Source: a virus. Taken from it: DNA of 64,000 bases. Location: the IMG/VR virus record IMGVR_UViG_3300046467_000379, positions 1-64,000 of that record; one strand, 5' to 3'. Of the stretch, positions 28,553 through 48,090 are shown piece by piece. The notes under the pieces are model-generated. The model saw only the letters and a program-made list of their open reading frames with translations, was not told the origin of the DNA and did not search any database. Each line of letters begins with the position of its first letter. Position 1 is the first letter of the stretch. Position numbers and translations under genes: made by a program.

Positions 28553-28777
28553 TTAAAGTTTAGATATTATCCTGTTAGAATCTCCATGTACATACACGTC
28601 TAGTGAATTTTGCTTGACTTCTTGCGCTTTATCTAAGGCGTCTTGCAAAGTTGTGTATGTTCCCCACAATTGGATTCCATCGGTTTGAATATCTACACTT
28701 ATAACTCTATACTCTTCTTCCGTTGCTGTCAACCACTGTTTCCTTATCATCCCCCCACGGTGCGTTCTGCGTCTCAT
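28553..28777 (-). CDS. Small hypothetical protein overlapping the sigma-factor gene
   Basis: 74 residues beginning MRRRTHRGGM. The GGGAG seven bases upstream supports this start, which lies 71 bases inside the sigma-like gene in another frame. Middle part beta-like (YRVISVDIQTDGIQLWGTY) with a helix (LQDALDKAQEVKQ). No family recognised; coupling to the sigma factor is clear from the overlap. Confidence 0.5.
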   Translation of the reverse strand: MRRRTHRGGMIRKQWLTATEEEYRVISVDIQTDGIQLWGTYTTLQDALDKAQEVKQNSLDVYVHGDSNRIISKL

Positions 28778-29291
28778 TTAAAACTCCCTTAAATAATTTT
28801 GCCCGTACTGCTTGACGCACTTTATATGCGGGTTCACCCAAATCTTCAGTAATTTCTTCCATAGTTAGTCCTTCTAATCGTAGTGTGATAAAAGCTTTTT
28901 CTATGGCATCTAACCCACACACGTCTACAAATTCTTTGAACTCAACATCAATTGTGAAATCTGAAGGGTCAGTAAGAGCTTTTAAAATTTCGACTGATTG
29001 GCTAGGAAGGGACGCCATAAAGTCTAAGTTCACAGCATCTAGACTCACCGTTGCGGGGCTTTGTCTCTGACTTTTCGATAACAGAGTCCGAATCGTATTC
29101 GTCATGGCGGTATGTAAATAGGTATGAAAGACTACTCCACGGTCTTCTTCAAACCCTTTCGCTGCTTTTACAATAGCTAATCTTAATTCCTGAGCAACAT
29201 CGTCTCTATCTAATCCCACCACATATACATTAGAAACCATTTTCTGAACTTTGGGTTCCCATTGCCTAATTAAATCATCATTAATTTCCAT
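28707..29291 (-). CDS. Sigma-70-like RNA polymerase factor
   Basis: 194 residues. Region 2-like core: DDVAQELRLAIVKAAKGFEED followed by 'FHTYLHTAMTNTIRTLL' (shown separately as DDVAQELRLAIVK and FHTYLHTAMTNTI), which matches sigma region 2.1-2.4. The C-terminal half has the region 4 helix-turn-helix look: LDAIEKAFITLRLEGLTMEE and DLGEPAYKVRQAV. It is the size of an ECF-type sigma. It could redirect host RNA polymerase to phage late promoters; the GTATAATATA sites are candidates but the link is inference. Just downstream of an HTH/zinc protein. Confidence 0.7.
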   Translation of the reverse strand: MEINDDLIRQWEPKVQKMVSNVYVVGLDRDDVAQELRLAIVKAAKGFEEDRGVVFHTYLHTAMTNTIRTLLSKSQRQSPATVSLDAVNLDFMASLPSQSVEILKALTDPSDFTIDVEFKEFVDVCGLDAIEKAFITLRLEGLTMEEITEDLGEPAYKVRQAVRAKLFKGVLNETQNAPWGDDKETVVDSNGRRV

Positions 29292-35129: not shown

Positions 35130-37361
35130 TTACCACGGGACATCCATCGTTGCATCATGCCCATCTATTTTAATTTGTAAATGGCTTGACGTTGACGCTA
35201 CCCCTTGTCTATAAGCGTCCAATAATTCTCTCGATAATGCTTCCTGTTCTTTATTCTGGTCACCCATTGCCCCCCAAAGGGCAGTCATTTGTGCTGTCGA
35301 TGTAGCAGCTGAAATGGGCATCCCTGCTAACCCAAAAGCCCCTGCTCCCGTACTAACAGTACCTAATGCCATTTGGGTGAAGATATTTCCAGCCTTTGTT
35401 TGATTCATATAACCAGCTAATGCAGTGGTTGTACCAGCATTAATCATATCAATATCACCCTTGCTCCGCATGTACCCTTCTGCCCATCCTATGGGATTCC
35501 ATTTACTTCGTTTTGTATGCTCTTCTTCACCAAAAGCTTGACGTATATCATTAATGCCAGACATTCTTCCTAGAGTATTCATTGCTGCTTCGGTGTTTTC
35601 CTTTGGGATAACCCAACCCATGTCTGACCTAAATATCTTGTTAACTCCATAGGCTGTCTCCATAACTCCAACAGCTGCTCCAATAATAGGTAAAGCTCTT
35701 AACAAAGAATTTTTAACTAGGTTCACACTTCCTCTAAGGGCAACTTTGGTTGCTGATGATGCTGGTAATTCATTTATCAACTTCAAAATACCTGATGCTT
35801 TCGTGTTTGTCTCTGTTATAAGGGCTTTTGCACGGCCTGGAACAGAAAGTATGTCCTTCAAACCTTTTAATTTGTCTTTCACCCAAGAAGTAAAAGTAAA
35901 GATTTTTATTTTTACTTTAGTTAGTTTACTTGAGCTTCCTCCTGCCATGTCATCGGCATTATTGACTGAGCTTGGTATTTCCTTACCAAATGGGTCAAAC
36001 AACCCACTACCCCTTGGCCTTACCGTTGGAACGTCTGGCCCCCCAATACTCGGTACGACAGGAGTTCTCCCAAACCCCAAGTCCTTTAGCATGTTTCCTT
36101 TCCACTCACCCATAGCTGCACCCAAAGCATTTTTTGGGCTTTGCCCTCTAGCAACTTGTCCAATAAACGCTTCTTGAGAAAAGGGATTAATTTGTTGGGC
36201 AATTCCCCTTACAATTCCTAGTGCCACCTTACCAGGGGCCAAACCTAAGTTTCCTACCCTACCCACACCACGTGTGATGAGGTTCTTAATTTTCAGCCCA
36301 GCAACAGCGGTTGTAGATACCCCTACCGCAAGCAAAGATGTTTTCAGCACAACGCCGAAATCATCAAACATCTCTTTCATTGCGGCTGGGGCACTACTAA
36401 TCGTCTCCGTTAGCTTTTTATCCTCCTTCTCATAAGGGGCATCCCAATTTATTGGGTTACTAGCAGTCCCCCTAGTGGGGTCTGGCGTATGGGTTGGGTC
36501 ACTTCTGGGAGTGCCAAAAGCGGTATCATTGAAGCTCCCTTCATTATTTGCCTGGTCGAAAGCATTACTATTTGCCGCTTGTTTTTTAGGGGATGCACCA
36601 TTCCACGTTGGTATATCAAGCTTCCAGATGCTTTTACCCCCTAAAGTAGCATTCCACAGGTTCCGAAATATATCATGCCAAGTGTCCCACGAAAACAGAG
36701 ACGTTATCCCGCTTATTATCTTGCCTGGCGCAGCCTTAATTACGTCTAACATAGGTTGCAAGACGGAATCTTTCCACCACGTTGCACTCCCCATGTTTTT
36801 AATCCCATTCCAAATGTCTTCGCCCTTAGCTTTCAGCCAATCATATCCCTTTACCGTCCAGTCCTTAATCTTAATACCCACACCAATAATTTTCATAATG
36901 GTACTGCCTACAAAACCGAAGAAGGCTCTGGATAAACGTCCCATTGTAGGAATTTGACGGGCAAACCAACGCATTAATGGCATTAATACTGGCTTGATTA
37001 ACGGAGCCAGCATTACGTCTACCATAGCACCAAAAATCTGGAAGAAGGCACCAACAGTACTTGTGAAAACTTGAGATTGTTTTAAGACGCCAGCCAACCC
37101 CATTTGAATGCCTAGGGTCTTAAACATCTTAGTCCACCATTTAGGCTGGTCTTTGGCGAAACCTAAGGCCTTTACATTGGCATCCTTAATAGTTTTCTGT
37201 ATCCCCCGCGCTTCCCGTTCCCCCGCAGCAGAGCCAGCATTCCCATTGCTGCCCCCACCACCAGCGAGTCCAGAACCTAAAGAGGGGCTTCCACCAGCCA
37301 TGCTTGCGGCCTGGTTAGCCCCCTCAATTATTAGTTTACCAAGTATGTTTTCAGCAGCCAT
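35130..37361 (-). CDS. Tail tape measure protein
   Basis: 743 residues. The N-terminus is Gly/Ala/Ser-rich and helical, followed by a string of hydrophobic segments (about 85-160, QMGLAGVLKQ ... FFQIFGAMVDVML ... MRWFARQIP), more hydrophobic helices around 350-370 and 555-590, and 'GKIISGITSLFSWDTWHDIF'. With about 0.15 nm per residue (family rule), the tail would be near 110 nm long. It lies directly after the frameshifted chaperone gene and before the distal tail gene, the standard order. The Shine-Dalgarno is supplied by the end of the chaperone frame. Confidence 0.85.
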   Translation of the reverse strand: MAAENILGKLIIEGANQAASMAGGSPSLGSGLAGGGGSNGNAGSAAGEREARGIQKTIKDANVKALGFAKDQPKWWTKMFKTLGIQMGLAGVLKQSQVFTSTVGAFFQIFGAMVDVMLAPLIKPVLMPLMRWFARQIPTMGRLSRAFFGFVGSTIMKIIGVGIKIKDWTVKGYDWLKAKGEDIWNGIKNMGSATWWKDSVLQPMLDVIKAAPGKIISGITSLFSWDTWHDIFRNLWNATLGGKSIWKLDIPTWNGASPKKQAANSNAFDQANNEGSFNDTAFGTPRSDPTHTPDPTRGTASNPINWDAPYEKEDKKLTETISSAPAAMKEMFDDFGVVLKTSLLAVGVSTTAVAGLKIKNLITRGVGRVGNLGLAPGKVALGIVRGIAQQINPFSQEAFIGQVARGQSPKNALGAAMGEWKGNMLKDLGFGRTPVVPSIGGPDVPTVRPRGSGLFDPFGKEIPSSVNNADDMAGGSSSKLTKVKIKIFTFTSWVKDKLKGLKDILSVPGRAKALITETNTKASGILKLINELPASSATKVALRGSVNLVKNSLLRALPIIGAAVGVMETAYGVNKIFRSDMGWVIPKENTEAAMNTLGRMSGINDIRQAFGEEEHTKRSKWNPIGWAEGYMRSKGDIDMINAGTTTALAGYMNQTKAGNIFTQMALGTVSTGAGAFGLAGMPISAATSTAQMTALWGAMGDQNKEQEALSRELLDAYRQGVASTSSHLQIKIDGHDATMDVPW

Positions 37362-37365
37362 TTAG

Positions 37366-38033
37366 TTATCCTTTCGCATTTAACTCATGTTCCCGTTCTG
37401 CTTTAGCCATCATTAGGGCTAATACTAAGGATACTTCAGCGGGTAACATTTGCTCTATATAATCCCACGGTATACCTTTTTCTAACAACGTTAAAAGAAC
37501 TGTCCAATGATTATATAGGTGGGCTTCATTTTGAGAAATATCACCTAAGTCTTTATAAAAGAGCGTTATTCGTCTTTTAAATTTTCAATGTCATCCATCT
37601 CTCCTGTCCCAAAAGCTTGAGGTACAATACTTTCTAAGGCACTTCCCAACCTCTCATCAATCGACAACAAAAATAACTCCGTAGTTTTTCCCCACGGAGC
37701 GTCTACTAACATTTCTTTTAAAGATTCTCTAACATAGGAATCCCCGTCAAATTTAGCCCCACCCTCGGTATCCCAAGCCATTGCTTTAGAGAGAATTTGA
37801 TTCCTCTTACTCCATGATAGAGGACGAACTGTTACCGTAAACTCAGCCCCATCCAATTCTATAGTACGTATTTCTGTTTTATTAGCAATACGATATTTAT
37901 TGAAGTCAAATTCTTTTTTAGGTTTGTTGAGAGAAAGGGGAAGGGAGTCTTCCAATTCTTCTCTCTGTTCCTCTTCTTCCTCCGTTAACATATCTAATGA
38001 CGGGCCACTAGCCCCTTTTCTTTTATTTGCCAT
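37366..38033 (-). CDS. Tail assembly chaperone, -1 frameshift fusion (gpGT-like)
   Basis: The 155-residue upstream frame (37566-38033) ends GAA AAT TTA AAA GAC GAA TAA. Slipping back by one base at the A AAT TTA / T TTA AAA heptamers continues for 69 residues in the -1 frame to TAA at 37366, giving about 222 residues. The added segment reads RRITLFYKDLG ... HWTVLLTLLEKGIPWDYIEQM and ends ELNAKG, a helical, protein-like sequence without its own start and with no in-frame stop. This mirrors lambda gpG/gpGT, where rare frameshift product and the main one in a set ratio wrap the tape measure. The tape-measure gene starts 5 bases after this stop. Confidence 0.8.
37566..38033 (-). CDS. Tail assembly chaperone (gpG-like)
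   Basis: 155 residues. A basic N-terminus, an acidic stretch (LTEEEEEQREELEDSLP), and a middle beta-like segment (TVTVRPLSWSKRNQ). C-terminal 'GTGEMDDIENLKDE' holds the slippery codons. It lies between the tail tube and tape measure, which is the position of lambda gpG. It serves as a chaperone that keeps the tape measure unfolded during tail assembly. The main product if no frameshift happens. Confidence 0.75.
   Translation of the reverse strand: MANKRKGASGPSLDMLTEEEEEQREELEDSLPLSLNKPKKEFDFNKYRIANKTEIRTIELDGAEFTVTVRPLSWSKRNQILSKAMAWDTEGGAKFDGDSYVRESLKEMLVDAPWGKTTELFLLSIDERLGSALESIVPQAFGTGEMDDIENLKDE
37575..37584 (-). other. Programmed -1 frameshift slippery site (AAATTTAAAA)
   Basis: On the minus strand, codons GAA AAT TTA AAA contain two overlapping canonical heptamers: A AAT TTA (37584-37578) and T TTA AAA (37581-37575). 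A Shine-Dalgarno-like AGGAGAG lies about 16 bases upstream, which could aid slippage. The frame-0 stop follows within three codons. No strong downstream hairpin is seen. Confidence 0.8.
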
Positions 38034-38042
38034 ACTTTCCTC

Positions 38043-39701
38043 CTACGGGTAATAATAAAGACTATCTGTCACCAATATTTTTGCATTCCTTACTAAGATA
38101 TCAGCATCTACTTGAACTGGGTTATCTCCTGTTATACCATGTGGGGCAGACCTAAAGAAGGCTCCCTGTTCATTACCACCTGTTGCAGCTGTACCATCAT
38201 CAGGTATGGTAATCGTAATAGAATCATTTGTTCCTCTAGTAAATGATAACACAATATTAAACCCCTGCATACCACTTCCAAAATCTCCCTCAGTTAGGAA
38301 TTCTTTGAAAATAGTGTTTCCAGAAGCCCCAGCAGCGGCTTGAGAATCAGGCAACGCTAAGGTTACTCCTAATGTATACTCTCTGCGTTGTTCTCTAATT
38401 TCAGTTGGCCCTCGTTTATTTCCCTGTCTCCGTTGGATATAGTATCGCGGTTCTTCTCCGTTAGATACACCCAAACTAAAGGAGCGAACTCTAGCCACCT
38501 CTACCCCAAACATGGTCACACTCCCCTGAGAGAAGAAATAAGGGTTGCTTGTTGGGAAATCTACGTTAGCCGCCGTAATACTTTGCATTAAACCGGCATG
38601 AGGCACTATTGCCGAACTACTACTAGAGTTACCCTGCATCTGATTATGCTTAAATCCTTGGAAGTTCACACCATCCCAAGACATATTCAGCATTCCTCCC
38701 TCATCTGCTGCAAGAGTAGCTGACCCTATCAGACCCCCAAAATACGTCCTGTCGAAGTCATTGGCGGCAGTTTCTCCGCTATCCCGCATATGCACATGCC
38801 ACGATACAGTATCCAAATCTACTTGTTCAAATATATGGTGGTCATACGTTATGCCTGTAGCTGCTACAGTTTTAATTTGAGTAGTTCCTGACCCTGCTGC
38901 TGCATGAGCATAAGTTAACGGATAATCTAATTGTAGCGTTAGGGTACTTATAGCCACAATCTTACGCACCTCAGAGACACTGGTAGCCACTGGAGAAGCA
39001 GCCTCGTCTATAGCTATCAATCCACCCACCGCCAACGTGGGGCTAGTGATGGCTGCAACAGTAATAAACACATCCCCTTTTCTTGCCTCAGCAGTTAGAT
39101 ACGTACCAGCAGAACTGGTACTAGCCTTAGTTACTACCTTTCCAAAGGGATAACGCAACGCCCGTCCATTTAGAAGAACAAAACCACTGACAGAGCCTGT
39201 AAAAGCCTGTTGACCCTTATATACTGCAAAGAAGTCACGTTTTGACTGAGTACCTAAGAAATAACGGGGTTCCAGAGTTGGAGTCATGTCTGGTACTTCA
39301 ACAGTATCATATACCCCAGGAATCTGATTCATATAAATATCAGCAGCGGTAGTAATAATAGCTGTTACTACTTGAATATTGGTATTATCTGGGTGGAAAA
39401 AGGCCGTAGGAGCATCGAGAAACAAGGTCGTTCCTTCAACTAATTCTACTCGTCGCACTTCAGATTCAGCCGTTGTCCCACTTCCTGCAACTTCGGGGCC
39501 AATTTGAATATCTTCATTAGCGGTAATACCCGACATGGCATCTACAGTCATTTTCGTAGACCCCGCAGGCAATCCCGCAGCCATATTCAGAACAGCAGCC
39601 CCTGTGCCATCGGTTACATCACTAGCTAATTCGGGGTATCCCCCAGGCGCAGCTTCAGGGCCAAAAGTTAGTTGTGCTTGGTCACTTCGATATACAGCCA
39701 T
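38043..39701 (-). CDS. Major tail tube protein
   Basis: 552 residues, long for a tail tube protein because of extra beta domains. The C-terminal half has the usual tube layout: 'SFSLGVSNGEEPRYYIQRR', REYTLGVTLALPD, IFKEFLTEG and FNIVLSFTRGTNDSITI. The N-terminal half holds an Ala/Gly/Thr-rich added domain. It follows a promoter motif and precedes the frameshifting chaperone and tape measure, giving a classic tail operon. A shorter HxH-free sequence and no sheath gene support a siphovirus. Confidence 0.75.
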   Translation of the reverse strand: MAVYRSDQAQLTFGPEAAPGGYPELASDVTDGTGAAVLNMAAGLPAGSTKMTVDAMSGITANEDIQIGPEVAGSGTTAESEVRRVELVEGTTLFLDAPTAFFHPDNTNIQVVTAIITTAADIYMNQIPGVYDTVEVPDMTPTLEPRYFLGTQSKRDFFAVYKGQQAFTGSVSGFVLLNGRALRYPFGKVVTKASTSSAGTYLTAEARKGDVFITVAAITSPTLAVGGLIAIDEAASPVATSVSEVRKIVAISTLTLQLDYPLTYAHAAAGSGTTQIKTVAATGITYDHHIFEQVDLDTVSWHVHMRDSGETAANDFDRTYFGGLIGSATLAADEGGMLNMSWDGVNFQGFKHNQMQGNSSSSSAIVPHAGLMQSITAANVDFPTSNPYFFSQGSVTMFGVEVARVRSFSLGVSNGEEPRYYIQRRQGNKRGPTEIREQRREYTLGVTLALPDSQAAAGASGNTIFKEFLTEGDFGSGMQGFNIVLSFTRGTNDSITITIPDDGTAATGGNEQGAFFRSAPHGITGDNPVQVDADILVRNAKILVTDSLYYYP

Positions 39702-42042: not shown

Positions 42043-42603
42043 CTACCTACTCCACATTAAATGGGGCTGAGGAGGCATAGGTTCATAATTAAAAGATATT
42101 GCTATTCGTTCTTGACTACTTTTAATTGTGTTCACCCCATGTCTTGTAGAGCCATTAAAGATTACTAACTGACCCGTTACAGGTTCAATATGATGTTCTA
42201 AGTCTGGAAACATTAATGCTCCAGCATAATCTGAGGGTACGGTAAGATAAAATACCCCGCTCCAAACAGCAGGCCAGTGGTTATGAACCTTAGTATAATC
42301 ACCCTTTTGATATTTTGCCCCCCACATATTCACTATTTGTAAAGGTGGGGGTGACCCATCTATAATTCCTGATATATGCTGTATTATACCACTAAACTCT
42401 TCTTCCAGTTCCATAAAGCCTGGTTGCTCTTGCATACCCCAGTCAGTCATACATGCTTTAACATTAGAGGTATAATTTTGTTTATCCCCTTCGTTAATAA
42501 TATGAATTATTTTATCCCTGACTTCAGGCTTAATTTGTAGTTCAGTTGTAAACACAGTTTCTGGTTGAGTTGTAGCATATTGATGTATGTCAATGTGAGC
42601 CAT
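42043..42603 (-). CDS. 2-oxoglutarate/Fe(II) oxygenase-like protein (TIGR02466-like)
   Basis: 186 residues. The probable metal-binding His pair lies in VHNHWPAVWSGVFYL (H107, H109), the distal His in TRHGV (H155) and the 2-oxoglutarate arginine in ERIAISFN (R166). The pattern H-x-H ... SGV-x-Y-L and later R-H-G-V resembles the phage family TIGR02466 of putative 2OG-Fe(II) oxygenases. The substrate is unknown; phage members are proposed to modify proteins or nucleic acids. It lies 5 bases after another oxygenase gene. Confidence 0.65.
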   Translation of the reverse strand: MAHIDIHQYATTQPETVFTTELQIKPEVRDKIIHIINEGDKQNYTSNVKACMTDWGMQEQPGFMELEEEFSGIIQHISGIIDGSPPPLQIVNMWGAKYQKGDYTKVHNHWPAVWSGVFYLTVPSDYAGALMFPDLEHHIEPVTGQLVIFNGSTRHGVNTIKSSQERIAISFNYEPMPPQPHLMWSR

Positions 42604-42608
42604 TTATA

Positions 42609-43319
42609 TCACCTATATCTATATTGAGAAGGAATATTCTCAGCATTAAACCCTAACCATAAGTTAATTGAAAACCTACTATCTTTAAATTCTCCTTCAT
42701 GTGTAGTTGCATCTACTGCATGAACACACTTGTTAGATTCAAAAAATATTGCAGTATTATGTACAGGTGGATAAGCTAACTGGTCTTCGATAGTCTCTCC
42801 AGATAGGATAAGTTCTCCACCTTCATACTGTCGTGGTTCAGTATTAAAATGAAGTACACACGTAATAATTCTGTTTGGGAAAGTGGGTTCAGAATCCATG
42901 TGCCACCCGTAAAAATCACACATACCATAAGAACTTAGTATAGTTTCCATGTGCGTAGTTTGGCTAACTATAGGAAACATGTGCGGTAATTTTTGGAAGG
43001 CATTAAGGAATTGATGACTGCCCAAAGCAAATTCTAATTGAGTTAGGATAACACTTTTCTCTCTCTTGCCCTTATAGTGGGTATCTAAAAAAACAATGTC
43101 ATTACTTCTTATGGCTAACTTTAACTTCTTAGTTTGAAGTATGCATTCATCGCACTCATCCCCATCTTCTAGGTGTGGTACCCCACCAATGCTTGCTGGT
43201 TCAAATACGGGTTCCAGCCATTGTGCTTCAGCTAAACATTCTCTAGCTGATGGTTCAGACAGGAAATTCTCAATTATTACATGAGGACTAGGACTTTCCT
43301 TATACTCTATCTTTTGCAT
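42609..43319 (-). CDS. 2-oxoglutarate/Fe(II) oxygenase (prolyl-4-hydroxylase-like)
   Basis: 236 residues. The double-stranded beta-helix motif is complete: H140-M-D142 (YGWHMDSEP), H200 (NKCVHAV) and R215 (SRFSINLW), with EGGEL between as in prolyl-4-hydroxylases. It would use Fe(II), oxygen and 2-oxoglutarate to hydroxylate a substrate, possibly a virion protein, as often proposed for marine phage relatives. A Cys pair (CDECIL) lies near residue 57. Its neighbours are an IPEWW-type protein, a second oxygenase-like gene and tail genes. Confidence 0.8.
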   Translation of the reverse strand: MQKIEYKESPSPHVIIENFLSEPSARECLAEAQWLEPVFEPASIGGVPHLEDGDECDECILQTKKLKLAIRSNDIVFLDTHYKGKREKSVILTQLEFALGSHQFLNAFQKLPHMFPIVSQTTHMETILSSYGMCDFYGWHMDSEPTFPNRIITCVLHFNTEPRQYEGGELILSGETIEDQLAYPPVHNTAIFFESNKCVHAVDATTHEGEFKDSRFSINLWLGFNAENIPSQYRYR

Positions 43320-45963: not shown

Positions 45964-48090
45964 TTAAGCGAATGCTACGGAAGCACTCCCGTAAAAATTG
46001 GTGCCATCATAAAAGAAAGCTACTATATCAATCCCTGCTGCGCCTGCAAGCGTAGGAGCCGTGCCAGCAGCCCACATAATAGGAGTAACGGCATCACTCC
46101 ACGTTACTGTCCTACCAGCCCCAGAATGTATAATCTTTAGCATAACATTACCAGGGCCAGCAGGAGCAGCCATTGTAATTGTTACGTTGCCACTTAAAGT
46201 AACATATTGTTTCATCCCAGTTGCCCAGTTTAGAGCGACTGTGCCAGAACTAGCACTTCCACCATTTACTAAAGCAAATGTAGCAGTCTTTATATTTGCG
46301 ATATTCTGGTCACTGGCATCCATATCCGCACCACTCAGAGTCAGTGCGCCAGCTATATCCACAGCACCAGAAAAGTCTCCTGTCGCTGCATCTAGTTCGC
46401 CAGAAATGGTAAGGTTTCTTTGCCCTGTAGTATCTACGTTTGCATCCGCAGTAACTACTTTAGAAGCAACAGCAGTACCAACTGTGGTAATACCATCTAG
46501 TAGCTCTAATTCAGCTTCAGCCAGAACTGCGTTACCAGCAGTAAAGCCTGTACCCGTTACTAATCCCGAAGAAGTAACCGCACCAGAACCAATTGTACCT
46601 ATACCTGTTATATTCGTACTGGCATCTAGCACCAATGCTTTAGAGGCAGCAGCCGTGCCTGCTGTTATATCCTCAATTTGTTCTAAATCAACTTCTACAA
46701 TTGAAGCATTCCCTATTGTAAATCCTGTAGCACTTACTACACCCGAAGATGTAATAGCCCCAGAACCAATTGTACCTATGGTTGCTATATTTTTACTGCC
46801 ATCCAAAACTACGGCTTTATTTACAGCAGCAGTACCAGGCGTAATGTCCTCTACTCTCTCTAAATCAGCTTCTACCATTGTGGCACTACCCATTGTAAGC
46901 CCCGCAGAAGTAATAATCCCAGAGGCACCAAGAGTGGTAATACCAGATAATGCTCCAGCAAAGACTACAGCACCATTAATGTCTACCGTAGTATCCGATT
47001 CTATGGTGAGAACACCATCAGCCGATTGGTGAATAAAAGTACCGGCATCGCCAAACTGTATTTTACGAGAACTGTTTAACAATAATCCTGTATCGTGTAC
47101 ATGGGTCAAACTTACATCTGAGTTTACACCAAAATTCACTACAGCCGCATCAGATATTAATGTTAAATCATCGCCAAGAATGGTATCTAAAGTCACGCTT
47201 AGTCCACCATCTGTTTGAAGGGAGCCATCCGTAATGGACGTTGCATTCGTTGTAGCATCCGTTTTTATAATCCCAGATGAGGTAATTGCACCAGCACTGA
47301 TAGTACCTATCCCTGTTATGTTAGTACTGGCATCTAGAACTAATGCCTTAGAAGCGGCAGCGGTTCCTGCGGTAATGTCATCTATCATTTCCAATTCAGC
47401 TTCTGCAATAACAGCAGACCCAATGGTAAAGCCAGTAGCAGTTACTACACCAGTAGATGTAATTGCGCCTAAGCCAGTTACGCTACCATCAGTAGCGAAA
47501 GTGTAGTTACCATCAGTAAACACACCATCTATCGTTAAGTTTCTAATGGTTCCGATATCTTTATTCGCATCCACTACCAAGGCTTTGGAAGCCACCGCAG
47601 TACCAGCAGTCAAATCATCTATCTGTTCTAAATCGGCTTCGGTTATAACCGCACTACCGATAGTAATAGACGTAGTAAAGGTTGGGGTAGCCACAGGAGC
47701 AATGCCAGCTTCTGCAAGCGTCTGGTTTATCCAAGCAGAACCATTCCACTTTAGTACTTCCCCAGAAGCGATTGAAGAAATGGTTACATCTGTCATTTCT
47801 GTGATAGTATTTAAAGCAGTTGTGGCTGTGGTTACAAATGCAGTAGTAGCCAACTGAGTGGTATTAGTCCCAGCATTGGCAGTAGGGCCAGCAGGCGTTC
47901 CTGTAAAAGTAGGACTCGCTAAAATACTAGCCTGGAGATTCGTGATGGTTAACTGCTTCAACGCTGTAGCAGAAATATCATAGATAATGAGGGTATCATC
48001 TGACGCAGGCGTACTTCCCAAACTACTTTGGTCTGTAATGAACGAGTTCCGTATTGGTAGACCTTCTAACGGATTAGCTATATATGGCAT
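45964..48090 (-). CDS. Repeat-built tail fibre protein
   Basis: 708 residues. The N-terminal 90 residues look like a phage tail-fibre attachment region. A repeat of about 43 residues occurs five times (residues about 143-185, 222-264, 398-441, 457-500, 516-560), each like 'TIGSA-x-x-x-EA-x-LE-x-I-x-DITAGTAAASKALVLDAS'. These repeats recur in marine phage fibres and may form trimeric shafts. The C-terminal 100 residues ('TLSGNVTITMAAPAGPG', 'AFFYDGTNFYGSASVAFA') form a compact beta domain that likely contacts the host. Contains very few charged loops. Confidence 0.7.
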   Translation of the reverse strand: MPYIANPLEGLPIRNSFITDQSSLGSTPASDDTLIIYDISATALKQLTITNLQASILASPTFTGTPAGPTANAGTNTTQLATTAFVTTATTALNTITEMTDVTISSIASGEVLKWNGSAWINQTLAEAGIAPVATPTFTTSITIGSAVITEADLEQIDDLTAGTAVASKALVVDANKDIGTIRNLTIDGVFTDGNYTFATDGSVTGLGAITSTGVVTATGFTIGSAVIAEAELEMIDDITAGTAAASKALVLDASTNITGIGTISAGAITSSGIIKTDATTNATSITDGSLQTDGGLSVTLDTILGDDLTLISDAAVVNFGVNSDVSLTHVHDTGLLLNSSRKIQFGDAGTFIHQSADGVLTIESDTTVDINGAVVFAGALSGITTLGASGIITSAGLTMGSATMVEADLERVEDITPGTAAVNKAVVLDGSKNIATIGTIGSGAITSSGVVSATGFTIGNASIVEVDLEQIEDITAGTAAASKALVLDASTNITGIGTIGSGAVTSSGLVTGTGFTAGNAVLAEAELELLDGITTVGTAVASKVVTADANVDTTGQRNLTISGELDAATGDFSGAVDIAGALTLSGADMDASDQNIANIKTATFALVNGGSASSGTVALNWATGMKQYVTLSGNVTITMAAPAGPGNVMLKIIHSGAGRTVTWSDAVTPIMWAAGTAPTLAGAAGIDIVAFFYDGTNFYGSASVAFA
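46411..47664 (-). repeat. Five diverged copies of a ~43-codon fibre repeat
   Basis: Copies are visible in the protein of 45964-48090 as 'GSA-x-I-x-EA-x-LE-x-IDDITAGTA-ASKALVLDA' with substitutions; copies 2 and 4 are the closest. Spacing between copies varies, so the DNA is not a tandem array but spread over 1250 bases. Such repeats favour recombination and domain swapping. Confidence 0.6.

Follow-up and report, generated by a model that had tools for sequence, protein, structure and literature searches.

A tail assembly chaperone gene with a probable lambda G/GT-type -1 frameshift in an uncultured virus and its relatives

The chaperone locus and its genomic setting

We analyzed a 64,000-nucleotide stretch of DNA (hereafter the window) from the record of an uncultured virus (66,941 bases), focusing on a frameshift feature at positions 37366-38033. 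The ORF list and a check of the sequence placed the whole feature on the minus strand (Table 1). ORF1, which encodes the predicted tail assembly chaperone described below, lies between the gene for a tail tube protein and a putative tape measure gene, and this order of tail tube, chaperone and tape measure position is the placement of the lambda G/GT type. ORF1 ends with the codons ATG GAT GAC ATT GAA AAT TTA AAA GAC GAA TAA, in which the heptamers A AAT TTA and T TTA AAA overlap, both in the zero-frame phase X XXY YYZ that tandem -1 slippage requires. From 37584 the -1 frame can be read without a stop as far as a TAA at 37368..37366, and the ATG of the putative tape measure gene (37361) follows 4 bases past this stop; reading in the +1 frame meets a stop within 4 codons in the window, and most relatives likewise have an early stop there. 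No family match to the putative tape measure protein was obtained in profile searches, and the protein has the motif LKQSQVFTSTxGxxFQxxGAxVDVxLAP in common with the product of the same-position ORF of a related lineage (L002).

Table 1. Coordinates of the features discussed (window positions unless a lineage of relatives, L, is named)
Feature	Position	Strand	Remarks
ORF1, predicted gpG-like tail assembly chaperone, 155 aa	37566..38033	-	ORF call; AGGAGG before ATG
ORF1 stop TAA	37568..37566	-	Codons GAC, GAA, TAA after TTA AAA
Candidate slip heptamer T TTA AAA	37575..37581	-	Retained in sister lineage L014
Overlapping heptamer A AAT TTA	37578..37584	-	Window only among 73 distinct sequences
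T-like domain in the -1 frame past the slip, 69 codons	37366..37575	-	
AGGAGAG, possible internal Shine-Dalgarno-like stimulator	37599..37605	-	
Tail tube protein, upstream neighbour	38043..39701	-	PF18906 Phage_tube_2
Putative tape measure protein, 743 aa, downstream neighbour	35130..37361	-	Position and size
Tail fibre protein, 1593 aa	29669-34450	-	Ends in Peptidase_S74 intramolecular chaperone domain
Sigma-factor-like protein	28707..29291	-	PHROG 351 and 1740
Covarying hairpin (predicted)	L002 3306-3370; L006 4042-4110; L015 3868-3930; L016 5345-5410; L024 3104-3170		Also L029, L087 and others

With regard to the virus itself, the nearest isolates for the major capsid and tail tube proteins were the haloarchaeal viruses HVTV-1, HCTV-1 and HCTV-5. 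Unlike haloarchaeal tailed viruses, however, the window carries replication genes (DNA polymerase I, DnaB-like helicase, DnaG-like primase and RecA-like protein) and a sigma-factor-like protein that suggest a bacterial host, the virion module being halovirus-like. A host-genome scan matched a 9.3 kb contig of a Maricaulis MAG, which was rejected as a host clue because its ORF layout looked viral throughout, so that no host was assigned. Protein relationships and the uncultured origin of the relatives suggest a marine origin. Elsewhere in the window, two adjacent minus-strand ORFs (42043-42603 and 42609-43319) located amid the structural genes looked 2-oxoglutarate/iron oxygenase-like by eye, and two 177-base tandem copies with a 74% match were observed at 46541-46898, inside an ORF of 708 aa (45964..48090).

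The predicted chaperone and its -1 frame extension

Comparison of ORF1 with PHROG profiles yielded weak matches (E 2e-4 to 2e-3) to three families, all annotated as tail assembly chaperone, and in the ORF1 family as many as 8 of 12 members gave such matches as well. The structure modelled by AlphaFold from 19 relatives had a mean pLDDT of 79, with a core above 90. Its best matches in BFVD were chaperones, including those of HHTV-2 and a Bacillus phage, with E values down to 4.5e-7. Although a Foldseek search of the whole model against PDB gave no significant match, a second look with VIA-align against solved structures did: YqbN (3klu, Z 7.7), the HK97 tail assembly chaperone gp13 (2ob9, Z 5.9) and 3fgx (Z 4.8) were among the top four, and unrelated rows had Z of 2-3. 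A Z below 8 alone is not decisive, and the assignment is made because profile, position and named fold all agree. With profile, synteny and predicted fold in concurrence, we conclude that the predicted product of ORF1 is a tail assembly chaperone, as the first-pass annotation had proposed.

Single-protein scans with ORF1 and with the putative tape measure protein found no relative. A scan with the tail tube protein provided the first one, and profiles of the fusion provided the rest. In total, 107 loci besides the window were gathered, which amounted to 73 distinct sequences including the window and to 53 lineages at under 75% nucleotide identity. The -1 frame was open for 63-88 codons past the ORF1 stop in all 73 distinct sequences, and no internal stop was detected in the -1 frame of any of the 73 fusions. 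Relatives carrying such stops would have spoken against a frameshift according to the earlier annotation, which had also described the 69 open codons of the window as protein-like. This description was borne out, since the -1-encoded proteins aligned across all relatives and the region was coding-like in them: substitutions between close pairs fell on codon positions 1, 2 and 3 in proportions of 32, 13 and 55%, respectively, indicating that the -1 frame evolves as coding sequence. The AlphaFold model of the -1 domain was compact and all-helical, with a mean pLDDT of 88; it had no fold match in PDB, and the domain alone had no match in PHROG.

Slip site and stimulators across the family

Examination of related phages, which the first-pass annotation had called for, revealed an in-phase heptamer near the ORF1 stop in all 72 relatives as well as in the window (73/73). 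The background of in-phase X3(A/T)3Z heptamers was 0.0027 per codon in the genes of the window and 0.0053 in the long ORFs of relatives, and thus the presence of the heptamer at this place is more than chance would give. The site was very uniform: A AAA AAA was found in 70 of the 73 sequences, A AAA AAC in one and T TTA AAA in two, namely the window and L014, which are sister lineages (support 99/92). Compared with the rest of the family, GAC replaces the second AAA in these two sequences and TTA precedes the remaining AAA. On this tree, A AAA AAA appears to have been exchanged for T TTA AAA once, three bases (one codon) upstream. A separate observation concerns three lineages (L080, L084 and L088), in which the slip site lay about 22 nt ahead of the stop and was made up of 9 A in a row, compared with 7 A at 10-13 nt, and transcriptional slippage at this run could contribute there.

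Folding of the 60 bases after the slip site showed more structure than random stretches of the same loci, with z below -2 in 36% of cases versus 6% (p 1.7e-8). A hairpin was predicted past the ORF1 stop in about a third of the lineages. Its 5' arm starts 7-9 nt after the heptamer and spans the bases just past the stop, and a conserved Glu codon marks the position of its 3' arm. When a codon alignment of 19 sequences was folded with RNAalifold, no consensus structure emerged, because this alignment placed the window and L014 one codon out of step and the stem register slides by 1-2 nt between lineages. We therefore swapped hairpin arms between lineages instead: the mean energy was -6.48 kcal/mol for a lineage's own arms versus -4.33 kcal/mol for swapped arms, none of 20000 permutations reached the observed value, and shifted controls gave little signal (z -1.0 to -2.3). 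Thus, by this comparison of sequences, the hairpin covaries in about a third of the lineages. At the hairpin position of the window, no stem-loop of the dnaX-like 3' type was found (arms -2.7 kcal/mol, rank 37/53), and the window's own small hairpins had z between -1.5 and -2.0. As the window lacks the hairpin, the element had gone unseen in the first-pass annotation.

The internal AGGAGAG, previously noted near the slip sites, lies 14 nt upstream of the first heptamer (A AAT TTA) and 17 nt upstream of the second (T TTA AAA), and its predicted anti-Shine-Dalgarno duplex has an energy of -7.4 kcal/mol. The spacing of the internal Shine-Dalgarno in dnaX is shorter than this. Counterparts reading AGGAGGT were present at a similar distance in L014 and L027. 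Across the family, 23 of 53 lineages had a Shine-Dalgarno-like motif upstream of the slip site, where synonymous recoding would give 18.8 +/- 1.9; the excess is slight, and a stimulatory role of AGGAGAG is weakly supported. We also considered whether the Shine-Dalgarno-like element and the hairpin are alternatives to each other between lineages, and no trade-off was observed (Spearman -0.02, Fisher p 0.15). Because the window lacks the hairpin, and AGGAGAG is weak and distant, the frameshift efficiency in the window is not predictable.

Frameshift model, alternatives and meaning

We consider it highly probable, from sequence comparison, that ORF1 encodes a gpG-like tail assembly chaperone and that a -1 frameshift of the lambda G/GT type at T TTA AAA yields a gpGT-like fusion. 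The earlier suggestion of a gpG/gpGT-type frameshift is thus supported by synteny, homology, fold, the conserved heptamer and the open -1 frame; the rarity of T TTA AAA in the family (2/73), the missing hairpin in the window and the missing PDB fold match of the -1 domain count against it. As we infer the occurrence and level of frameshifting and the roles of both products, most ribosomes would read ORF1 and terminate at the TAA. A minority would move back one base on T TTA AAA, with the Leu and Lys tRNAs re-pairing on TTT AAA, bypass the stop and append 69 residues, giving the gpGT-like fusion. If the products act as in lambda, the part shared by both may bind the tape measure protein, the helical domain added in the fusion may recruit tail tube subunits, and a low ratio of fusion to short form would matter for tail assembly. 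The slip site would have been inherited from a lineage in which T TTA AAA, three bases further upstream, took the place of A AAA AAA.

The double slippery heptamer that had been proposed as the mechanism was not supported, since A AAT TTA was absent from 72/72 relatives, including the sister lineage L014. The latter reads GAC AAT TTA AAA, in which T TTA AAA is kept and the first heptamer is broken to C AAT TTA, so that a single third-position base decides whether A AAT TTA exists. Given AAT TTA, just an A at the third position of the preceding codon is needed, which makes its presence unremarkable. Overlapping pairs also occurred elsewhere, with 15 among 245 heptamers in the long ORFs of relatives. 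A slip at either heptamer would give an identical protein (...ENLK-RRIT...), and mass spectrometry would thus be blind to which of them slips. It is unlikely, in our view, that the pair itself is the signal, with slips at A AAT TTA or T TTA AAA jointly setting the fusion level, even though both heptamers are in phase and a second chance to slip could compensate for the lack of the family hairpin in the window. Stacking of heptamers is not more than expected by chance in these sequences and adds nothing demonstrable, and A AAT TTA in the window is probably incidental.

Other explanations would dispense with ribosomal slippage altogether. The two frames could be separate genes, translation of the second relying on reinitiation or a rare start codon, and in some relatives (L002, L009 and L022) an ATG does overlap the ORF1 stop (TAATG). 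However, no ATG, GTG or TTG occurs within 20 codons of the slip site in the -1 frame of the window, none was present near the junction in the window and 22 other distinct sequences, which together make up 17 of the 53 lineages, and the universal in-phase heptamer would be left unexplained; this arrangement appears very unlikely. A shift produced by RNA polymerase on an A run would be in keeping with the 7-A run of most relatives (66/73), but the longest A run at the site in the window is 4, the bacterial case has been described on runs of 9 A or T (PMC5009743), and the phase of the heptamer and the downstream hairpin fit ribosomal slippage, which makes slippage of the polymerase highly improbable. 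Because the window derives from a contig of an uncultured virus, a sequencing or assembly indel that broke one gene into two might be suspected. The relatives already refute it, as the same break was found in 73 distinct sequences from separate assemblies, and its probability is practically negligible.

The preferred reading, a -1 frameshift at T TTA AAA, can be compared with known systems. In lambda, gpG and gpGT are made at 30:1 via -1 frameshifting, a feature widely conserved in long-tailed phages, and the haloviruses HVTV-1, HCTV-1, HCTV-2 and HCTV-5 also appear to use a -1 frameshift in tail genes (PMC5009743). Mutants of TP901-1 revealed that the fusion was needed and that permanent fusion was not infectious (PMC4493119). 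As in lambda, HK97 and TP901-1, the gene in the window lies between tail tube and tape measure and has a candidate -1 slip site of the X XXY YYZ form near its end, followed by an extension of about 70 codons. Similarity to HK97 extends to the predicted fold of ORF1 (2ob9), whereas no sequence similarity between ORF1 and lambda G could be detected. The slip site of TP901-1 is reported to be of the GGGAAAG type (PMC4493119), in contrast with T TTA AAA in the window and A AAA AAA in the family. ORF1 matches the tail assembly chaperone of HHTV-2; unlike the window, HHTV-2 gp47/gp48 has no canonical heptamer, although its -1 frame is open. The nearest solved folds to ORF1 are YqbN-type prophage chaperones (3klu and 3fgx), but with a sequence identity of 7-12% the likeness is in fold only. 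Overall, the window fits the lambda G/GT model in every testable feature, except that stimulators vary across the family.

A more far-reaching idea is that, after loss of A AAA AAA and the hairpin, the window lineage restored the former fusion level by a different heptamer, placed three bases further upstream, with the aid of another heptamer overlapping it and of an internal Shine-Dalgarno. We regard this as a speculative and rather doubtful scenario; if true, the level of recoding would have been held constant while its cis-signals turned over.

Frameshifting of the lambda type has long been known in tailed phages, and the slip site of the window is somewhat unusual. Since it has no start codon, the 69-codon -1 ORF is missed by ordinary gene callers, and it belongs in a joined CDS. 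The tail-chaperone frameshift appears to be present throughout this large family of uncultured phages, most of them probably marine; the site hardly varies (A AAA AAA, 70/73), with one clear case of a slip-site exchange and one-codon move in the window and L014. The lineages with the hairpin (about a third) and those lacking it form a natural series in which the stimulators required for a -1 frameshift could be tested. For the phage studied here, the frameshifted chaperone would very probably provide two forms of a tail-assembly helper.
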